A stretch of DNA of 64,000 nt from Balneolaceae bacterium. Lineage in GTDB: Bacteria; Bacteroidota; Rhodothermia; Balneolales; Balneolaceae. The stretch covers positions 1,302,001-1,366,000 of the forward strand of contig CP051242.1 of assembly GCA_017795005.1 (NCBI GenBank). Direction: 5' to 3'. The position numbers were made by a program, and so were the translations under genes. Every line of letters starts with the position of its first letter. Positions within the stretch are counted from its first letter, which is position 1. This document shows positions 19,701 through 50,194 of this stretch, one piece after another. The notes under the pieces were generated by a model that worked only from the letters and a program-made list of their open reading frames with translations, was not told where the DNA came from and did no database searches.

Positions 19701-20122
19701 GCAGATTGAATTTGAACGATATGGACAAACTCGTGTGAAATTACATTTCTAAGCCAGTTATGAGAACCACGCAATGGAGTATCAAGGGAAGGGAGCCAGA
19801 TATCGATTTTATTGTCAAAGAAATAAGCTGCTCCGTTTGAATAATCTTCCCGGTCTTTAAGTACTATACTCACCTTTTCATCAGGCTCATACATATAAAG
19901 AGAGGTAATTGGTCCATAAATTTCTTCAGCAATCCTTGAACTTACCTGTGCAGAACGACTATTTCCTTCCTGAAAATGGACGATAAAATGGTCACTCTCT
20001 ATTGAAAACCATTTCAAATGATTTTGTGGGTAATCGTAGAACTGCGGATCTGTTTGAGCAAAGGCAGTAACACTAAAGCCGATGGAAAGAAGTAGCAGAA
20101 GATATATGTTAAACCGTTTCAT
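16748..20122 (-). CDS. gluzincin-like peptidase / WD40-like propeller / outer-membrane barrel protein
   Basis: This 1124-residue protein has three modules after a signal peptide (1-22). First is a peptidase-MA-like domain with HEFVH at 130-134 and the third ligand Glu in AEGTAQY at 190, so the zinc site looks intact. Second is a TolB/DPP-IV-type beta-propeller (about 330-640) with repeated FSPDGSKIAF, WSPDGKTIAAI and VSPDGEFLYFS strands. Third is a C-terminal Omp85/surface-antigen-like barrel (about 690-1124) with GMRSYP near 1000 and a terminal Leu-rich strand. Databases usually name such proteins Tol biopolymer transport homologues. The start overlaps the previous stop by one base. It is likely an outer-membrane protein with periplasmic or surface enzymatic activity. 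Confidence 0.8.
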   Translation of the reverse strand: MKRFNIYLLLLLSIGFSVTAFAQTDPQFYDYPQNHLKWFSIESDHFIVHFQEGNSRSAQVSSRIAEEIYGPITSLYMYEPDEKVSIVLKDREDYSNGAAYFFDNKIDIWLPSLDTPLRGSHNWLRNVISHEFVHIVQIQSALKRQRKYPALYLQWLSYEKVRRPDVLYGFPNGIASLPFASINIPAWFAEGTAQYQRAGLLYDTWDSHRDMILRTRIMSDTYFSLTEMGTFSSKNSLERETVYNQGYAFVIYLVQRFGEDVLRRISEAMGEKGVYIVEEGIEIATGISGTQVFEDWIKERKDFYSESTSNMEVTSSDYIEKEGFFNFFPKRSPNGDAVAYISNRGKDYSLLSLYLKKDGEETEIAQIEERTLHTHHNHADALKPLISVLSTSFSFSPDGSKIAFAVNKKNKFGEFYRDIFLFDIENSEITRLTHSARIESPMWSPDGKTIAAIQYKSGTQNLVTFDPDNPSEIVTLTTFEHGETIFTPSWHPNGNTIYYAMADYWNRNLYSVDIDSKEISTIFESEFIDYRDPAVSPDGEFLYFSADIGGIFNIYRKPVGSDSPDRLTNVLGGAFMPEVDNNQLYFSEYEADGYKIKSVGIRNLISNPGTGSYDPVIPEFSFDPDSIPTVSYLNEFDDKDLNHFSADAHAVADTGSYHFEIDSEQASNERVYRPYEDTFTSFSFFPVLRFDNYTKSNGQNGTLLKNGQVGKLGENLLRDIKPGIYFASRDVLDKLSIFGGIMLGVASREAESIGGFFQPNRLFKLDRDVFFIAEYRGLPFIKKSWSPTVSVEVYNLHRNVDDGLSIEEFPCTSCTPDTSYVDIGYEVWEANLFFRSKLSRRSLLELGIGYSPYTVQTDNFFSRELRTLIPGSSSQYYKATTLSASYTFDYYEFSTDGDIAPIGLKGYLRYQYQPSKLLEEYEIKDGSLIPIFKSTKNHSTELHLRYGFRTFGGQAFQARVRGFSYFNTPDDSFFSDYIGGFLGMRSYPFFAIAGNTTAFTSLSWFTPIVKDMNTQIGPYTFDKLYARFFFEAGNGWYPNEAAKNNPDLLDSGKNIKKGIGAELRLASSGYYLFPLRFFVSASYGFDKFSLTLPDDFVTGSQSNRVTYGREFLFHFGLTFDFELL

Positions 20123-23100
20123 TAGTGCGCGACTCCAATTTTGACCAGTTTAGATTCGCTTTTTTCACCAACGGTCGCTTTTACTTTTGCAAAATAAGCA
20201 CCGCTTCCCCAATCAGCAGTTGATATAAGGATTTCTTCCGGACCTCCACCGGTAGCTTGCACTGTTCTTTCAAAAACAATTCGTCCAGAATAATCGATAA
20301 CGGTAATCTCAACAGTTCCGCCGGGAGACTCTACTTCAAAACGAAGATTAGTTTCTTCATCAGCCGGGTTTGGCCAGTTATAGGTTTCTTTAGTATTAAG
20401 TATACTAAAACTGTTTTGGTTCACTTCGCTTATATTTATATAAGCAGATACCTTGTTATATGGATTTGAGCCGTAGCGTGAAGGCCATTGTGAAGAAGTA
20501 TAGTTCTCAAATCGCCATGCCTTTAAATCTCCGACATGACTAATAGCATACAACTTGTCCTCATAAAGAACAGGGTGAATCGGTTGTATATCTTTTCCAA
20601 CTGCTCCTCCAACATATAAGGGAAAACCTGAAATAGGTTCTCCGGTAGTTTCGTAAGCAAAAATATTTACAGAATATTCATCCTGACCAACAACAAGGAT
20701 GTCCTGGGTGTTGTCTCCTGTTATATCTGCAATAAGCGGAGTGCCTATAAATTGAATACCATCTGGTGCAATGATTGGAGTATTAGGAAGTAAAGCACCG
20801 TTTAAATTATATCCTTCAATGCTACTTTCAGAACGATTAACTCTGTAAATGAATCCTTCATCAACAATTGCAGGCCATTCAGCTTTATCTTCTTCAAATA
20901 TTTGAGTGAAGGGTTCTTCCATAGAAGGATTTACTATTGTGAAGGTTCCATCTTCAAAAAGATAATATAGGTTCCCGTTATTGGTACTTATGGTTCCTGC
21001 AAAAAGTCGCTCGGTTGCATTTGAGATATAATTCGGAATGTTTTCACCTACAAAAGAAACCGTATTTCCATTAATACCAACAAAATTACTATTTATGATT
21101 TCGGAGCGGAATTCATATCCGTAGGTATTTTGAATTATCGAACCATCCGAGGTATCAATCGAAGTATTCGTAAAATCAAGCTCAATAACAGAGCCATCCT
21201 GAGAACTTATAAAAGCAGTATTTGGCTGAGTTGTTGATTGCCAGGCTGAGTTCGTTTTGAGATCAATTCCTCGTACAATCATCGAATTATTAAAAGAAAG
21301 TGGATTAGTTCCAATAATAATTCTGTCCAAAACTAATGGTTGTTGGTATAAAAATTGACCAAAACTAACTCCTGCGTTTGGATTCGGATCGGAATAATCA
21401 TATAAATAAACATCATTTGCACCTGTAATAACCAATGTGGTATCTGATTGGGCTTGATAAACTGCTATGCCGAGCGGAAAGTAATCCAAAAAAGAGGAAA
21501 TGAATTGTTCATCAGGTTGTTGAATAGAAATTATTTCCTCAAAACCGAAATCCTGTGAGTCTGTTGCCCTAACTTTAAAGCTGGCTTGAGGTAAATTTTC
21601 CGAGAAGTCATAAAACTCGAAAAAAGATTTTGCTCCAGAATTGCTGTTATTATTCGGATAGGTCTCTGGTCCAAAAACATTATTAGGATTCAGATCAATA
21701 CTTCCACCTTGAGTGATTACCCGATAATCATTTCCTGACCACCAAAAATCATAAGCAAATCCAAAGACAGGGGAGTTATCTAACAACCCAACATCAAGTC
21801 CAATATCCTGAGCTCCGTCGCCTTCCTCTAAATCCACGCCTCGTCTTTGAGGATCTATATTTACTCTTCCACTTTCTAATTGCTGATTTATAACAGATTC
21901 ATCGATATGCCAAATCAATATTCCACCATTTAAAAGTCTGTCATCGTCTGTGCCTTCTCTTTCGTCTGCGCCAATATCAATTCCACCTGGAAGACTCCAG
22001 TCGAAGTTACTTACATCTATGATAGTACCTACATCTAGTAGGCTGTCAAATCCAAGTTCCTGAAAAATGAAAGCTTCATCTTCATTTGTGAATGTTTTTT
22101 GTACTTCAGATCCATCAGGTTGTCTTGTTGTGATGACTACACCAGTCCCGTTTATGTCACGGTGCCTGTTTTCAATCAGAAAATATTCAGTAGAGGAAAG
22201 TTCATATTTTGCAATACTATTCGGATCATTTCCAGATCCTACGGGTAGTTCAATACTAGTCGAGATAGTATCACTTATGATAAAGGGAGTTTCCCATCCC
22301 AGAAATATTTTCTCCCATGCAGATGGTTCCGGAGGAATAAGTCCGTTGTATCCAAAAAAACCGGCGCCATCCATTAATCCAAAACGACCAATAGCAGGTT
22401 CTCCGGTTTCAGTATTAAATAAGTCGGGCAGGCCTAAATGACTTCCGATAGAAGCACATAACAAACCATTAATTGAAAGCGGAAATACAATCTCGTTTTC
22501 CGAGATATCTTCACCTCTGCGAGATTCGGTTCTTGGGATAATCATGGAATTCTTTATTCGAAAAGCACCATTATTTATAGAAAAACCATCAAAATCATTT
22601 CCAAGCCACTGCTCAAGATCAGCTTCTCTCATATAAATAGAGGGGATATCGAAAGGGGTGATATCAAGGCTGGTTCCTGTAAGTTCTACATCTCTTCCAA
22701 CTCCGGCATGAAATACAACAAATGCAGTGCTATCCGGATCTAATCCTGTTGCATCAAATCCTCCTGAGTTCTCTACTGTTGCCCACACATCCTGAAGAAA
22801 TAAAGCCAGTTTTTCGGTTGTAAAACTTTCACCAATTGGAGAATATTCTTCCATTCGCTTTTCTAACTGATAAACAGTGGGAAGAACCTGATATTCTATA
22901 GAGAGTTGTCCGTCGGAAGATTTGTCAAAGTAATTCTTAGCGAATTCCAGATGCGCTTCGAAATAGTGCTGATTATGAGGTAGGGGGTCTATATAAGTAA
23001 TTTCCTGTCTGGATAAATAGGGGAGACCTTCCATACCGTTTACGCCAAAAATTCCTGTACCTGAGGTTAGGCGGTTGTCATCCTCCTGAAACTCAACCAT

Positions 23101-23277
23101 TATTGCGACAATATTAAGGGTGCCAACAGCAGGGGCTGCTTCAAATTTTGGGATTGGTTTCGAAATCGCATGAGTTCTCCGTAACTCAAATTCTTGAGCT
23201 GAAGAAGAGTAAACAAATAAAAAGAGCATGTTTACCAAAACGAACATGCTCTTTAAAATAGCAGATGTGGATTTCAT
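20122..23277 (-). CDS. M6-like (immune inhibitor A) protein with degenerate active site and T9SS tail
   Basis: The 1051-residue exported protein (signal 1-27) follows the M6 peptidase layout up to about residue 340. The catalytic HExGH is replaced by ASIGS at 275-279, immediately before the conserved LGLPDLF (281-287). Thus both zinc-binding His and the catalytic Glu are gone. The rest includes other M6-domain landmarks such as ENRH and WHIDES. A propeller-like region of unknown ligand follows, then a C-terminal T9SS type A sorting domain (about 970-1051, with NWPNPADEETNL and GSGAYFAKV). It should be exported by the T9SS as a binding or structural protein rather than a protease. It lies 4 bases after porV. 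Confidence 0.82.
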   Translation of the reverse strand: MKSTSAILKSMFVLVNMLFLFVYSSSAQEFELRRTHAISKPIPKFEAAPAVGTLNIVAIMVEFQEDDNRLTSGTGIFGVNGMEGLPYLSRQEITYIDPLPHNQHYFEAHLEFAKNYFDKSSDGQLSIEYQVLPTVYQLEKRMEEYSPIGESFTTEKLALFLQDVWATVENSGGFDATGLDPDSTAFVVFHAGVGRDVELTGTSLDITPFDIPSIYMREADLEQWLGNDFDGFSINNGAFRIKNSMIIPRTESRRGEDISENEIVFPLSINGLLCASIGSHLGLPDLFNTETGEPAIGRFGLMDGAGFFGYNGLIPPEPSAWEKIFLGWETPFIISDTISTSIELPVGSGNDPNSIAKYELSSTEYFLIENRHRDINGTGVVITTRQPDGSEVQKTFTNEDEAFIFQELGFDSLLDVGTIIDVSNFDWSLPGGIDIGADEREGTDDDRLLNGGILIWHIDESVINQQLESGRVNIDPQRRGVDLEEGDGAQDIGLDVGLLDNSPVFGFAYDFWWSGNDYRVITQGGSIDLNPNNVFGPETYPNNNSNSGAKSFFEFYDFSENLPQASFKVRATDSQDFGFEEIISIQQPDEQFISSFLDYFPLGIAVYQAQSDTTLVITGANDVYLYDYSDPNPNAGVSFGQFLYQQPLVLDRIIIGTNPLSFNNSMIVRGIDLKTNSAWQSTTQPNTAFISSQDGSVIELDFTNTSIDTSDGSIIQNTYGYEFRSEIINSNFVGINGNTVSFVGENIPNYISNATERLFAGTISTNNGNLYYLFEDGTFTIVNPSMEEPFTQIFEEDKAEWPAIVDEGFIYRVNRSESSIEGYNLNGALLPNTPIIAPDGIQFIGTPLIADITGDNTQDILVVGQDEYSVNIFAYETTGEPISGFPLYVGGAVGKDIQPIHPVLYEDKLYAISHVGDLKAWRFENYTSSQWPSRYGSNPYNKVSAYINISEVNQNSFSILNTKETYNWPNPADEETNLRFEVESPGGTVEITVIDYSGRIVFERTVQATGGGPEEILISTADWGSGAYFAKVKATVGEKSESKLVKIGVAH

Positions 23278-23281
23278 TCCA

Positions 23282-24424
23282 TCAGAAGTTCAGGAGTACA
23301 CTAAATCGTAATGTATTTGCTAACGGATGATCAGACTCTAATGTTTTGATATAACTGAAATCTATTCCAAAAGAGTTATATCTAAGACCGGCACCAAATG
23401 TGATGTATTTTCTGTCTCCATTTTCTGGGTCTTCGTAGTAGAATCCACCTCTTAATGCAAAAAGATTGTTGTACCAATATTCAGCTCCGGCGCCAATCAT
23501 GAATTGTTGCATGAGGCTTAGTTCTACATTTTCCTGACCATTAAATCGTGTATAAGGCCCCCATGATTCAAATAAAGCCTGAATGGGACCTACAGCTCTA
23601 TATTCTGTTATGGTAGAGTCTGCACTTGGCACTTCAAATGCTTCATTTCGGGCCATAATTTTTGAAACATCAGAGGCAATGGTAATCCGGTTAAATCCTT
23701 CAGGATCTAAATCATAATCCAAAGCAATACCAAATCTTAGAACAGTAGGAAGCGGATCCTTTTGGGCATTGTCGGTATACTGAATAGCCGGCCCCAAATT
23801 GGATAGGTTCAGACCAGTACTGAATCTGGCTTTATTTGCACCAATATAAAATGGATCACTTTTGTAAAGGTAAGAAAGGTCGAGCGCAACACTGTTTCCG
23901 GGATTTACTTTTTGAGCATCCACCTCGACACCATTAGCTAAACTTGAGTAGATTACTCTAAGTCCGGCTCCTATAGCAAGATTATCATTTACCGGAAAGC
24001 CGTAAGAAAGCCCAACTGCAACCTCATAACTGTTGAATCGGGAAAGTAAATTATTCGCTCCGTCTCTGTTTTCCTGCTCGCCCAAATTCAGAAAAGTAAT
24101 ATGTCCACCAATGGTACCAATTCCTTCTACATAGTATTTCCCTACTAAATAATCATAGAAAAGGTCACTTACGTTAAAATTGGCTAACCAATTAGAGTGA
24201 GTTATACTGATTTGGTTATCCTTTTGGAAAGCCAGCCCCGCCGGGTTCCAAAACATTGCAGCTGCATTATCAGCGATAGCAACCCCAGTGTTACCCATTG
24301 CGGCGCCTCTTGAGTCGGGTTCAATTTGCAGGAAAGGTACGGCGGTAATACCTATTTGTGCATTCGAAACTGCAGGAAATACGAATAGCGAAATTGCTAT
24401 TGCTAACAAATATACTTTTTTCAT
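23282..24424 (-). CDS. porV: type IX secretion system outer-membrane protein PorV
   Basis: The 380-residue protein has a signal peptide (1-22) and the PorV/LptO hallmark at the mature N-terminus: FLQIEPDSRGAAMGNTGVA and WNPAGLAF (about 30-66). A FadL-like 14-strand barrel pattern follows, ending FSVLLNF. PorV shuttles T9SS cargo from the translocon to the PorU sortase by binding its C-terminal domain. It lies 61 bases downstream of porU on the same strand, which matches the usual porU-porV order in Bacteroidota. Length is normal. Confidence 0.93.
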   Translation of the reverse strand: MKKVYLLAIAISLFVFPAVSNAQIGITAVPFLQIEPDSRGAAMGNTGVAIADNAAAMFWNPAGLAFQKDNQISITHSNWLANFNVSDLFYDYLVGKYYVEGIGTIGGHITFLNLGEQENRDGANNLLSRFNSYEVAVGLSYGFPVNDNLAIGAGLRVIYSSLANGVEVDAQKVNPGNSVALDLSYLYKSDPFYIGANKARFSTGLNLSNLGPAIQYTDNAQKDPLPTVLRFGIALDYDLDPEGFNRITIASDVSKIMARNEAFEVPSADSTITEYRAVGPIQALFESWGPYTRFNGQENVELSLMQQFMIGAGAEYWYNNLFALRGGFYYEDPENGDRKYITFGAGLRYNSFGIDFSYIKTLESDHPLANTLRFSVLLNF

Positions 24425-24485: not shown

Positions 24486-27400
24486 TTATCGGATTATTAC
24501 GAGCTTTTCGATTTTCTCGGTTGTTTTTCTTCCTTCGGGGGTATCTGTTGCAACCCGAAGCACATAAATATAAGTACCGTTACCCAGGCGATCATTATCC
24601 CTGTCACGGCCATTCCATGGAATACTGGCATAAGAACTTAGTGTATTACTTGATGGTATGTATTCTTCAATACGGTGTACAGGTTTACCACTTAAGGTGT
24701 AAATATGGATATCTACATCCAGTGGATTTCCCTGTTGATTATGTTCGAACGTAAAGGAAGTAGCATTATTCATGGGATTTGGATAGTTATAAACCTTCTC
24801 AACTATTAAATCTTCATGATCAGCCACCTGAAAAAAAACTTCTTGTTCAGACGGATTGTTATGCACATCCCATGCACGAACTTTTAGTGCGTAGTTACCT
24901 TCCGGAATATCTTCCAGCGGGTACTCGATACGCCCACTCGTATAATCATTTAAAGTGCCCTCGAAAAAATCGTTGAGCACAAAGGTTTTTTGTGGTTTTG
25001 TATCGATTGTAGCAATTATTTCATGTCCTACTCCTGTTCCTGTAGTGTTAATTCCGGAGCTATCGCTAAGCTCCACGAATAGAGTTGGGGAGTTATTAGC
25101 AAGACTCCCATTTATAAAACTTTGATCATTAAGATAAACATCTAAAAAGGGTCCCTTTCCATCATTAATCGCATTTGAGTTAATCCCATTAAATATGATA
25201 TCCCGATAAGTTCCTCCTGCTGTGATTTGGCCATTTTTTGCATAAACGACAATTCGGCCTTTGTTTTCAGAAAAACTGATATCCTTTGGTATTATAAAAG
25301 TGACGGAATATTCTCCATTTTGTGCGAGGGTTTTGCCCTTAAAAAGAACATCATTTTCTACTTCATAGGTACACTCTTTACTAGTATTTTGATTTAAGTA
25401 GCAATCGTCTGGTTCTTCTAACCAAACCCGATCGGATGGAATACTAACCGTGCGGGGTGCATCAAAAAGAGTAATAGAAACTTCACCGTTGAAGTCCGCT
25501 TCAATATTTCCATTTTGATTTCGGATTGCCCCGTTAATAGTAACCTGATCAAGAGCTTTAACAGTAAGCACAGTATCTTCAGTATTAATATCTATTCCAT
25601 TAATAGATTCTATACGTGCTTCCTTTTCCGGAAAAGCAAATTGCAGGGCCGGGTCTCCAAGTAGAATGAACTTTCTATTATTTGTCTGAGAACCAACACT
25701 TGTATTTTTGGTGCGAAGATATATTTCTCCAAGAGTAAGAGGTTCTCCATTTTCATCTCTCTCAATCATATTTTGAGAAAGCTCTATGTTTAGTCCATAA
25801 TTAAGTCCATTTGGACTTCCGCTTGTATAAACTACCCTTGTAGTAGTAAAGCTGGCTATTGCACCTCCATTATCTGCAAAAACGAGTTTCTCTGCTCCAG
25901 ATTGAACATTAATATCATCATACCTTCCAAACTGGCAGGTTGCAGTAACAAAAAGAGTAAGTCGGTTTCGGTTAGTAAACTGTGACACATATTCTGAACT
26001 ATATAACTCTTCATCAGTCAAATTCTGGGCATTACCATGTCCGGAATAATTCATCACTAAAGTGCCTGAATTAATCGTATTTATAAAATCGTTTGTTGCT
26101 CCCGGAAGTTGACGTCCAGCACCTGTTATTTCTTCAGGATAATCAAAGAGGTAGATTTTTTTAGCTCTTCCTCCTGCATTTTCGAGATTCATTCTTCGAA
26201 GGGTTCCATCAGCATTTTCAACATGTAAATCTCTGTTGCTTTCGGGCTCAGGAAGATCATCATCAGCTGCAAAAGTAAATAGGTTCTGCCAGTCACCATC
26301 ATTATCAGGATTCTCATACCTTTTGATTTTATCAATAGCTATTGCTGCCTCACTCCTGGTTTGAGCTGAAATCCGACCTATTCCGAGATCAACTCTCGCA
26401 GAACTATTCAGAACTCCTTCCGAGTCATCCATTAAGCCAAAAAAATCATCGCTTCCGAATGAATTAGTTCTGTGAATGGATTCTGAAGTTTGATAGGTTA
26501 ATACATGATTGGTGAAAGAATTAGAGACGATATTTTTTGTGTCGTATGTGGTATCTCCAAAAAGCAGTAAATACTTTGGAGGAAGTTCCCCATCAGTAAC
26601 AGCCATATCCCAAAGATGTTTTAGGAAGTCTCTTATTGCAGTAGGATCTTTTACTCCGGATGAAAATTCATTCAGTATTTGATTTTGAGTAACTACTAAA
26701 GGAGTTAAGCCACTTTCACTTCGATGTGATGCCAATTCCTGAGCAAAATCAAGAAGTTGTTCTGATGTGACTATAATATAGTCCGGGTAAGAAGTGTTAC
26801 CGTGAAGATTTTGATTAGCAACTTGTTCACCCATTTGCGGGGTCCAAAGATTCGATTGTACAATAATTTGATTATCAGGATTTGAATTATAGACTAGACT
26901 ATGAATGGAACCTGAGCTACTTACTTCCAAAAGTTTTGGTTGAACAGGATTTGTAACATCCATTGCAAATGGCGTGCTGGAGAAACCAGTCATTCTATAA
27001 TCTGCAATTTCATTTTCAGAACCATCATTAGGAGAAAAAAAATAGAGTTGATTATTCTTTGCTGTTAATTGTCTTCTTACAACGAATCTTAAATAATCAA
27101 TAAAAGCATTCGCACCGGAGTCCGTATTTTTCATCATCAGGTCTAATTCAAAAATGCCGTTTTCGCGATTTTGTTGAACTGGTAAATTTCCAAAGAAAAA
27201 CCTTCTGGCTGATTCATGCTCATATGAATTGTAGTCGCTGGTAAGTCTGGAAATAGTAAAGTTTTGAAACGACTCATCGTTAAAGTTCATCTCAAAAGAG
27301 GTAGAAGTAGTTGATCTAAGATAAATTTGTCCGGAAACAAAGATGGGTGTATTTGTATCAATATCAGGTAAAGTATCCCGAAAAATATTAACGAATTGAT

Positions 27401-28388
27401 TTACTGAAGCAGCCGAAATGGTTTGACCCAGCCAGAAGCGTCCTGATTTTTGTCTTGTTTCAGTTTTTGTTAGCTCTTCCTCTTTCCATATAAAATCATC
27501 AAATGAAGTTATAGTTCTGGTAGCATTTAAGCCTGAATTCTGAACAGTTAAACGTTCACCGGTGGAGTTTCCGATAGTGAGAAATACATACACATGTTCA
27601 CTATAAGGGTGAAGAATTTGACGGAATGAAGTTCCAACACGGGTTTCCTGATGAGGACTATTCCCGTAGAATATCACACGGTCTGAAGGGTCAAAACTGC
27701 CATCTGATTCGCCCTGAACTATAATGGGGATTTGTGAAAACTCAGGTCTTACGTCGCTATTGTTTTCAGATAAAGGTAATCCACCAGTTCCCCAAAGTTG
27801 GATATTTCTTGGATCAATTTGATCTAAACTTACTCCCAGATCCGATAAGTAATTGGCATCTAACTGATAGATTCCATTATTAGTAATTGGAATTTTAAAC
27901 CATGCACCACTTGCTAAAGGGTGGTCTTCAGCTGCAATATTTTTTTTGAGTACAGATGTTGATGGAACTTCTTCAGTTACATGATATAAACGAAAGCGGA
28001 TTTTTGTAGTATGAAAAACAGCATCTGAAGAGAAACGGGTCATATGTATTTTAAGCGAGGCAACTTCTTTACCTCTGTAAAATCCGGATTCCAATACTTC
28101 TGCTACGGGGCTTTCAGAAGAACTTAAATTAAGGGCTATTTTTTTTGATTCAGATAAAGGTTCATTATTGGTTATTACTGATTGATCTAAAATCGAATAT
28201 TTTGCAACTCCATTTTGAACAGGAATCATAAATTCATAGGGAGGATAAATCCCTAAATCAGAATTTGTAATCTCGTAGTCAGTGTATTCAAGAGTGGTAA
28301 CAAGTTTCTTTAACTCCTGCGCTTTAGATGCACCGCTAAAAAGAAAGAAAATCAAGAAGAGGGTGATATATGAAAACCTTGGAAGCAT
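24486..28388 (-). CDS. porU: type IX secretion system sortase PorU
   Basis: The 1300-residue protein (signal 1-23) is a C25 gingipain-type cysteine peptidase. The catalytic pair is H784 in NYSGHGNAQN and C818 in VTATCQFGRYDD, 34 residues apart as in gingipains. N-terminal beta domains (about 30-530) precede the peptidase domain (about 545-910). C-terminally there are Ig-like domains and a FlgD-like segment (about 1210-1300, NYPNPMNNATSF). PorU cleaves the T9SS C-terminal signal at the cell surface and attaches cargo to lipopolysaccharide. It heads the minus-strand operon that runs to rpe. A consensus promoter lies about 190 bases upstream of its ATG. Confidence 0.95.
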   Translation of the reverse strand: MLPRFSYITLFLIFFLFSGASKAQELKKLVTTLEYTDYEITNSDLGIYPPYEFMIPVQNGVAKYSILDQSVITNNEPLSESKKIALNLSSSESPVAEVLESGFYRGKEVASLKIHMTRFSSDAVFHTTKIRFRLYHVTEEVPSTSVLKKNIAAEDHPLASGAWFKIPITNNGIYQLDANYLSDLGVSLDQIDPRNIQLWGTGGLPLSENNSDVRPEFSQIPIIVQGESDGSFDPSDRVIFYGNSPHQETRVGTSFRQILHPYSEHVYVFLTIGNSTGERLTVQNSGLNATRTITSFDDFIWKEEELTKTETRQKSGRFWLGQTISAASVNQFVNIFRDTLPDIDTNTPIFVSGQIYLRSTTSTSFEMNFNDESFQNFTISRLTSDYNSYEHESARRFFFGNLPVQQNRENGIFELDLMMKNTDSGANAFIDYLRFVVRRQLTAKNNQLYFFSPNDGSENEIADYRMTGFSSTPFAMDVTNPVQPKLLEVSSSGSIHSLVYNSNPDNQIIVQSNLWTPQMGEQVANQNLHGNTSYPDYIIVTSEQLLDFAQELASHRSESGLTPLVVTQNQILNEFSSGVKDPTAIRDFLKHLWDMAVTDGELPPKYLLLFGDTTYDTKNIVSNSFTNHVLTYQTSESIHRTNSFGSDDFFGLMDDSEGVLNSSARVDLGIGRISAQTRSEAAIAIDKIKRYENPDNDGDWQNLFTFAADDDLPEPESNRDLHVENADGTLRRMNLENAGGRAKKIYLFDYPEEITGAGRQLPGATNDFINTINSGTLVMNYSGHGNAQNLTDEELYSSEYVSQFTNRNRLTLFVTATCQFGRYDDINVQSGAEKLVFADNGGAIASFTTTRVVYTSGSPNGLNYGLNIELSQNMIERDENGEPLTLGEIYLRTKNTSVGSQTNNRKFILLGDPALQFAFPEKEARIESINGIDINTEDTVLTVKALDQVTINGAIRNQNGNIEADFNGEVSITLFDAPRTVSIPSDRVWLEEPDDCYLNQNTSKECTYEVENDVLFKGKTLAQNGEYSVTFIIPKDISFSENKGRIVVYAKNGQITAGGTYRDIIFNGINSNAINDGKGPFLDVYLNDQSFINGSLANNSPTLFVELSDSSGINTTGTGVGHEIIATIDTKPQKTFVLNDFFEGTLNDYTSGRIEYPLEDIPEGNYALKVRAWDVHNNPSEQEVFFQVADHEDLIVEKVYNYPNPMNNATSFTFEHNQQGNPLDVDIHIYTLSGKPVHRIEEYIPSSNTLSSYASIPWNGRDRDNDRLGNGTYIYVLRVATDTPEGRKTTEKIEKLVIIR

Positions 28389-28583
28389 ATAATGGGTTAA
28401 CGTATTAATAAGCTGAAATTGCTTGATTAGAAAAATCTAGCGTACAGAGTAAATCCGATTAAAAAATCTTTAACGTTTAGAGTGGCAACTAAGTCCATAC
28501 AGAAACAATGTTCTTTTTTTGATTAAAAAATGAATTTGTAGCTGTTTTTTATGGCCTTTTGGATTTGTTAAAGATGAAAGTTA

Positions 28584-28612
28584 ATTATAGCGGTGACATG
28601 GTATAATGTCAA
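28584..28612 (-). promoter_or_regulatory. consensus -35/-10 promoter upstream of porU
   Basis: On the minus strand TTGACA (28612-28607) and TATAAT (28589-28584) are separated by exactly 17 bases, a perfect sigma70 consensus. TGACAT and ATGTCA arms with a 6-base spacer form an inverted repeat over the -35 box and upstream spacer, a possible operator. The predicted start near 28577 gives a 5' leader of about 190 bases. Confidence 0.6.
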
Positions 28613-28627
28613 CTAAAAAAACGCTGT

Positions 28628-29806
28628 TTATAGCATTTCTAATACTATCGAAGATGCACCACCCCCACCATTACAAATACCAGCACAACCGTATTTACCT
28701 GAGGTTCTTTTTAGTGCATGAATCAATGTAACTATAATGCGAGCACCTGAGCACCCAATGGGATGTCCCATACTAACAGCACCACCATGAATATTGACTT
28801 TATCAGGGTTGAGTTCCAGAATTTGATTATTAGCTAGTGCAACAACAGAGAATGCCTCATTAATTTCAAAAAGATCGATTTCTTCTTTTGATAAGTTTGC
28901 CTTTTTCAAAGCAAGTGGAATAGCATCGGCTGGGGCAGTTGTAAACCATTCCGGTGCCTTAGCTGCGCTGGAGTGACTTAAAATTTTTGCAAGAGGTTTT
29001 AATCCTAACTCAGAAGCTTTTTCTTCGCTCATCAATAAAACAGCAGCAGCACCATCATTAATGCTGGAAGCATTTGCAGCAGTAACAGTTCCTTCTTTTT
29101 CGAATACAGGTCTGAGGGTAGGTATTTTCTCAAAATTAACTTTATCCAGCTCTTCATCCTTGATTACCTCAGTTACTTTCCCTTTTCTGTCTTTGACGTT
29201 AATCTTTATGACTTCATCTTTAAAATAACCTTCTTTATGAGCCGTAATTGCACGCTTATAAGAAGCAATGGCGTATTCATCCTGTTCCTCTCGATTTATC
29301 GAGCATTCTTTAGCACATAATTCTGCGGCGTTACCCATGGCGTAGTCATTGTAAACATCCCAAAGACCATCTTTTTGAATACCATCTTCAATTTTACCAT
29401 GCCCATATTTTGATCCCCAGCGTTGACTAGCTAAATAGTAGGGTACGTTACTCATGCTCTCCATACCGCCAGCAACGATTACATCTGCATCTCCTAATCT
29501 GATTTGATCGGCAGCAATCATAATTGCTTTCATCCCTGAGGCGCAAACTTTATTTACAGTTGTGGAAGGAGTGAGTTTTGAAAGCCCTGCTTTTAATGCA
29601 GCTTGGCGTGCGGGAGCCTGACCAACACCTGCTGTTAAAACATTTCCCATTACTACTTCATCCACTAAATCCGGAGAAATACCAGAAGATTTGATTACTT
29701 CAAGTATAGCTGCTGCACCTAATTCGGGAGCAGAAAAAGATGAAAGACTACCTCCGAAAGCTCCAATAGGAGTTCTTTTAGCTTCTACAATAACAACGTT
29801 TCGCAT
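28628..29806 (-). CDS. acetyl-CoA C-acetyltransferase (thiolase)
   Basis: The 392-residue enzyme has all three thiolase catalytic residues: C88 in VNKVCASGMKA, H348 in SMGHPIGCSGAR, and C378 in GCAGICNGGGG. It makes acetoacetyl-CoA from two acetyl-CoA or runs the reverse reaction in fatty-acid or ketogenic amino-acid breakdown. The length and the GICNGGG motif point to the AtoB/PhaA type rather than the trifunctional FadA. It may supply the same catabolic network as the acyl-CoA dehydrogenases and Etf genes near 47-53 kb. The gap to metB upstream is 80 bases. Confidence 0.94.
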   Translation of the reverse strand: MRNVVIVEAKRTPIGAFGGSLSSFSAPELGAAAILEVIKSSGISPDLVDEVVMGNVLTAGVGQAPARQAALKAGLSKLTPSTTVNKVCASGMKAIMIAADQIRLGDADVIVAGGMESMSNVPYYLASQRWGSKYGHGKIEDGIQKDGLWDVYNDYAMGNAAELCAKECSINREEQDEYAIASYKRAITAHKEGYFKDEVIKINVKDRKGKVTEVIKDEELDKVNFEKIPTLRPVFEKEGTVTAANASSINDGAAAVLLMSEEKASELGLKPLAKILSHSSAAKAPEWFTTAPADAIPLALKKANLSKEEIDLFEINEAFSVVALANNQILELNPDKVNIHGGAVSMGHPIGCSGARIIVTLIHALKRTSGKYGCAGICNGGGGASSIVLEML

Positions 29807-50161: not shown

Positions 50162-50194
50162 TTAGCTTTTAGTTAGAACATAACTAAAAGCTAA
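50162..50194. repeat. perfect 14-bp inverted repeat between fixC and fixX
   Basis: TTAGCTTTTAGTTA (50162-50175) pairs exactly with 50181-50194 around GAACA. Degenerate outer copies of AGCTGTTAGC and its complement lie on either side. No T-run follows the minus-strand hairpin. Confidence 0.75.

Follow-up and report, generated by a model that had tools for sequence, protein, structure and literature searches.

Our analysis points to a porU promoter of the family Balneolaceae, in a variant seen once per genome, that probably starts a structured 5′ leader. The window, i.e., the whole stretch of DNA analysed, comprises 64,000 nt of a Balneolaceae bacterium (GCA_017795005.1, contig CP051242.1, positions 1,302,001–1,366,000 of the forward strand). 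Comparison between relatives shows the conservation of the promoter boxes, their 17-base spacing, and the covariation and position of a helix, P1, at the predicted 5′ end of the transcript. The sigma factor, the point where transcription starts, a possible effector and an effect on regulation are inferred.

The porU locus and its promoter boxes

The identification of porU by its family matches is secure. The genes and promoter elements of the locus are as follows.

24486–28388, minus strand: porU, encoding the type IX secretion sortase (Peptidase_C25; 1058 bits to NF033707, cut-off 420; PF01364)
23282–24424, minus strand: porV, directly downstream of porU and encoding the outer membrane channel protein of type IX secretion (287 bits to NF033710, cut-off 250)
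28628–29806, minus strand: acetyl-CoA acyltransferase (thiolase) gene, upstream of porU on the same strand (TIGR01930)
28607–28612, minus strand: putative −35 box TTGACA, kept as TTGA[CT][AT] in 29 of the 34 family porU loci scored
28603–28606, minus strand: TTAT, extending the −35 box to TTGACATTAT
28584–28589, minus strand: putative −10 box TATAAT, without the TTTG usual in this lineage; TATTAT or TATAAT in most relatives
28594–28611, minus strand: palindrome TGACAT-N6-ATGTCA, its second arm not conserved, judged to be due to chance

A gap of 239 bases separates the thiolase gene from porU, and the boxes lie within it. A thiolase match was found upstream of porU in all 25 loci tested, ending 502 nt from porU in L018 and 688 nt from it in L139. 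Between this gene and the boxes, 12 of the 25 loci carry a terminator-like hairpin, so porU probably needs its own promoter there. In relatives, a stretch of Ts is conserved 3–8 bases upstream of the −35 box (T in 19–24 of 26 sequences at each place), also in species where no terminator hairpin was detected.

A sequence-only reading of this DNA had reported TTGACA-N17-TATAAT upstream of porU, and the pair is indeed present on the minus strand (28612–28607 and 28589–28584). Searched for at 16–18 bases apart, TTGACA and TATAAT are separated by 17, the usual best spacing, and agree with the sigma-70 consensus at 12 of 12 bases. This is the sole 12/12 match within the 20 kb scanned, where box matches of all grades occur at chance level (62 found, 61.0 expected). 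In the 3.75 Mb genome, TTGACA-N16–18-TATAAT has 3 exact matches against 4 for the reversed control, so that genome-wide counting proves nothing; the two matches outside the porU locus sit within open reading frames. The strict extended form TTGAC[AT]TTAT-N12–14-TAT[AT]AT has a single match in this genome, at porU.

Conservation of the boxes among relatives

The family set holds 39 porU loci, of which five without an N-terminal match were left unscored. Among the 34 scored, where two pairs each come from one genome, TTGA[CT][AT]TT...TAT[AT][AC]T lies 200–268 bases before porU in 29 (27 of 32 genomes). The pattern is absent from L013, L014, L028, L039 and L138, the last of which, by our reading, comes close to it with an identically spaced TTGCTTTTAT...TATTAT. 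The sequence-only reading had staked itself on homologous porU upstream regions keeping the boxes, and most of them do, which makes the boxes very likely the real porU promoter.

The strict form was searched for in 32 genomes, 20 from the family and 12 from elsewhere in the order, not all of which have porU. It occurs in nine of them, once each, and eight of the nine matches stand directly before porU; the ninth falls within a long open frame for a putative cation exchanger. The reversed control matched in none of these nine genomes and once in each of two further ones.

Our early comparison used 18 sequences, several of them chosen since the motif had already been seen in them. The later sets, 26 aligned promoters and 25 leaders, were selected by the box pattern. 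Since this pattern itself excludes TTTG at the −10 position, evidence in these sets can come only from bases that it does not cover. Such bases include the last two of the TTAT extension: 24 of the 26 sequences have A at the first of them, and 24 have T at the second. Across the 26 sequences the spacer is constant in length and variable in sequence and the boxes hold, as expected of a promoter, and the boxes are the best-conserved part of the aligned region.

Promoter type of this genome

Bacteroidota promoters used by the primary sigma factor read TTTG or TTG at −33 and TAnnTTTG at −7. This genome uses promoters of this type for stable RNAs, as had been presumed: of 21 tRNA genes treated as the leading gene of a cluster, 13 have TAnnTTTG within 120 bases upstream, against a mean of 1.6 and a maximum of 7 in base shuffles. 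The count draws on loci for 30 of the 39 tRNA hits, and two of the 21 genes lie, by our own reading, inside rRNA operons.

We examined 11 stable-RNA promoters (ten tRNA and one rRNA), excluding three TAnnTTTG matches 92–106 bases away; the spacing to TAnnTTTG was picked for the best match among 16–19 bases, with TTG at 16–18 bases. Nine begin with TTG, three read TTGAC, and five match TTGACA in at least 5 bases, namely TTGACA-N17, TTGACT-N18 (twice), TTGAAA-N18 and TTGATA-N18, each ahead of TATNTTTG. TTGAC thus stands at the same distance in some tRNA promoters, so the porU −35 box is not foreign to this genome. What is odd at porU is that the −10 box lacks TTTG and that TTAT extends the −35 box. 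A perfect sigma-70 pair had been called unusual for this lineage; this does not hold for the TTGACA half, which is shared with stable-RNA promoters, and does hold for the TATAAT half, since porU has TATAATTAAC in place of TTTG at −7.

The upstream regions of 203 protein genes in a 464-kb stretch were less telling than those of the tRNA genes. Neither TTGACA nor TATAAT was enriched in them, both falling below the shuffles. TAnnTTTG was found 34 times, against 24.9 (sd 5.1) in shuffles and 32 on the reverse strand; being barely above the shuffles and equal on the reverse strand, it did not reveal a general promoter. An unguided word and dyad search in the same 203 regions returned nothing clear.

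The porU promoter would resemble the Bacteroidota primary-sigma type in its TTG-type upstream box, its spacing of about 17–18 bases and a −10 box that starts with TA. It differs in having TATWAT without TTTG at the element-bearing loci, and in the extension of the upstream box to TTGACATTAT. With the sigma-70 consensus of the Escherichia coli type it shares all twelve bases and the spacing, but the fourth place of its −10 box is T, not A, in 20 of the 26 sequences, and the primary sigma factor of this genome is, as we take it to be, Bacteroidota-like in sequence.

The predicted leader and helix P1

If transcription starts about 7 bases after TATAAT, the leader measures about 189 nt. This agrees with the 190 bases or so given earlier, and the leader is itself partly conserved. 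Its features are listed here.

28389–28577, minus strand: predicted porU 5′ leader, about 189 nt, its start placed from the −10 box
28567–28575, minus strand: predicted 5′ arm of P1, AUCUUUAAC, beginning 8 nt after the −10 box
28466–28474, minus strand: predicted 3′ arm of P1, GUUAAAGAU, placed by alignment, clade-permutation tests and a hand-set register
28538–28542, minus strand: GCUAC core of a conserved leader element, copy 1; copy 2 is absent in the window's species

Immediately downstream of the predicted start, the leader can pair with a segment some 100 nt further on, and the letters of the two differ between clades. The window's genus has the arms AUCUUUAAC/GUUAAAGAU, Balneola has AGAUUUUAAU/AUUAAAGUCU, and five of six leaders of Gracilimonas have GACCUG/CAGGUC (genus names as we deduced them). 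We found P1 in 19 of the 25 leaders, 17 of them with at least 6 consecutive pairs and two (L011 and L012) with just 4–5; it was not found in L008, L009, L137, L017, L018 and L139. Of two laboratory-grown relatives, Balneola sp. EhC07 (L048) carries both boxes and P1, and Gracilimonas amylolytica (L017/L043) carries the boxes, with P1 not found. With the register for pair counts set by hand, seven of the nine pairs show changes on both sides, two of these seven resting on one sequence each. Across leaders the 5′ arm starts 6–8 nt after the −10 box.

Permutation tests, with windows chosen after viewing the alignments, showed that the 5′ stretch of a clade pairs better with the partner from its own clade than with partners from elsewhere: none of 5000 permutations reached the observed pairing with 23 leaders in 11 clades, and 3 of 5000 did so with all 25 leaders in 8 genera. 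The same 23 leaders, leaving out L018 and L139, were used to scan 171 window pairs, where P1 ranked first with a z of 3.9 (spread of all z, 1.32) and one pair other than P1 (32 × 102) reached 3.3. Within single species P1 gave p values of 0.01–0.15 (17 leaders). Helices P2 and P5 around the GCUAC elements were not significant (p 0.06–0.12), and RNAalifold over all 25 leaders returned no structure. Compensatory changes, as looked for in a structured leader, were found for P1 only.

P1 begins where transcription should start, so that promoter and helix support each other. On this comparative evidence we hold P1 to be real with good confidence, and we think it likely, a little less firmly, that transcription starts within two bases of its arm. 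No TAnnTTTG occurs within any of the 25 leaders.

The GCUAC element is held in position in 23 of the 25 leaders, 38–46 nt after the −10 box. A second GCUAC follows at 120–160 nt in 20 of the 25, and the window's genus has no copy there; the hairpin after this second copy has a mean z of only −1.09. Two other uses of the element were considered and dropped. As a DNA site elsewhere, TATA-N4–9-GCTACNATT gave 60 matches against 65 for the reversed control in 13 genomes. As an ECF promoter, GCTAC with CGTTA was dropped because its CGT-like part lies, by our own reading, within hairpins whose sequence varies between clades. In three of the loci without the box pattern (L013, L014 and L039), GCTAC is, by our reading, kept and flanked by CGTCTAT and ATAGACG, which could pair.

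Eight Balneola leaders served to build a covariance model. Of 25 held-out sources, four (L124, L007, L010 and L122) gave weak hits in the same domain (E 0.017–0.83); the window's own leader was missed. Run on 89 family genomes, the model matched just its eight source genomes, once each, so that these eight show no second copy and the model does not reach past the genus. In the window, the AT-rich stretch 50162–50194 gave weak, chance-like hits to this model on both strands (E 0.55 and 1.9). No Rfam family matched the window at gathering score: two hits far below it fell on the strand opposite to the leader (E 0.44 and 4.3), and six relatives gave none up to E 1.

Proposed mechanism

We propose that TTGACATTAT and TATWAT, the latter 17 bases from TTGACA, are bound by RNA polymerase carrying, most likely, the primary sigma factor, and that transcription would start 6–8 bases past the −10 box. 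The transcript would thus open with the 5′ arm of P1, whose partner follows about 100 nt on, and the domain so enclosed holds the conserved GCUAC element. In most relatives the second GCUAC lies between P1 and the start codon. The leader could then set the amount of PorU, and perhaps of PorV, encoded next downstream, after transcription has begun. The absent TTTG might mean a low basal rate or dependence on a helper. That the primary sigma factor, possibly with help, uses this promoter is the assignment we narrowly favour, and the leader is probably regulatory for porU expression.

A bolder proposal, which we advance tentatively and hold to be rather less than an even chance, is a porU-specific regulatory RNA of Balneolaceae outside Rfam. 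It would combine a one-of-a-kind promoter, P1 at the 5′ end and one or two GCUAC elements, and would tune sortase synthesis by binding a small molecule, a protein or an RNA. The porU leader is like structured cis-regulatory leaders such as riboswitches and attenuators in its long-range covarying helix roughly at the 5′ end, the conserved element inside it and the gene downstream. It differs from them in matching no Rfam family at gathering score. Searches of the openly available literature listed no mapped porU start or leader RNA for this lineage.

Alternative explanations

The earlier reading had proposed that a repressor sits on the TGACAT/ATGTCA palindrome and blocks the promoter. The palindrome is in the sequence (arms at 28611–28606 and 28599–28594, with a 6-base loop), and its first arm coincides with the −35 box. 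The second arm, however, occurs in just 1 of 26 orthologous promoters, so the palindrome is not conserved with the promoter, and comparable ones are common: 249 perfect 6-base palindromes with a loop of 3–10 bases occur in the window, about one per 257 bases, against 153–180 in five base shuffles. We therefore rejected it as an operator and regard repression by this route as very improbable. Just as improbable is a mere chance match of the boxes: the exact matches in the genome do not outnumber those of the reversed control, but 29 of 34 family loci conserve the boxes and the strict form has its sole genomic match at porU.

An ordinary porU promoter with a long untranslated region, where P1 arises incidentally or does no more than shield the 5′ end and no RNA regulation takes place, is unlikely in our estimate. 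It would suit the boxes being the best-conserved part, the non-significant P2 and P5, the missing Rfam match, and the relatives in which P1 and the second GCUAC are missing; covariation of P1 across clades and the fixed position of GCUAC in 23 of 25 leaders argue against it. Slightly less unlikely is that the boxes are recognised by a dedicated porU regulator, either an alternative sigma factor or an activator. This would be compatible with the leader part of our proposal, and its odds overlap with those of the preferred reading. The strict promoter is single-copy, 17 of the 18 Sigma70_r2 matches in this genome are, by our own reading, not RpoD-like, and porU is among the SM6-type promoters of Flavobacterium psychrophilum (PMC9723704). 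Against it, the −10 region TAT[AT][AC]T has no CGT box, the mark of SM6 in the same source, and the −35 box matches some tRNA promoters of this genome. We retain the primary sigma factor and a structured leader as the preferred explanation.

Control of type IX genes elsewhere

In Porphyromonas and Flavobacterium, ECF sigma factors have been linked to the control of type IX genes (PMC4800418 and PMC9723704). SigP of P. gingivalis binds upstream of porT, ruvA, porV and porP (PMC4800418), and the ECF-type motif SM6 of F. psychrophilum, whose hallmark is the CGT box, counts porU in its promoter list (PMC9723704). The Balneolaceae promoter would be like these in controlling a type IX gene, porU itself being on the SM6 list. 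It differs in having no CGT-type −10 box. If our proposal is true, Balneolaceae set the type IX sortase step differently, by a single sigma-70-like promoter and a folded leader, and porU would offer a clean case for how a Bacteroidota-type polymerase handles a TATAAT box.

The sortase gene itself was not found throughout the family genomes. In the genera g6 and g19, porU was not found in any of 12 genomes of one genus or any of 28 of the other, save two marginal matches, both to the C-terminal tail of porU. At least 90% completeness is reached by 31 of these 40 genomes. Either the type IX sortase has, as it appears, been lost from both genera, or its copies there are too diverged for the search used. 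In the window, the product of the gene after porV (20122–23277, minus strand) matches NF052323 with 1204 bits; it is a T9SS-dependent M6-like inactivated metalloprotease and itself bears a type IX sorting tail.
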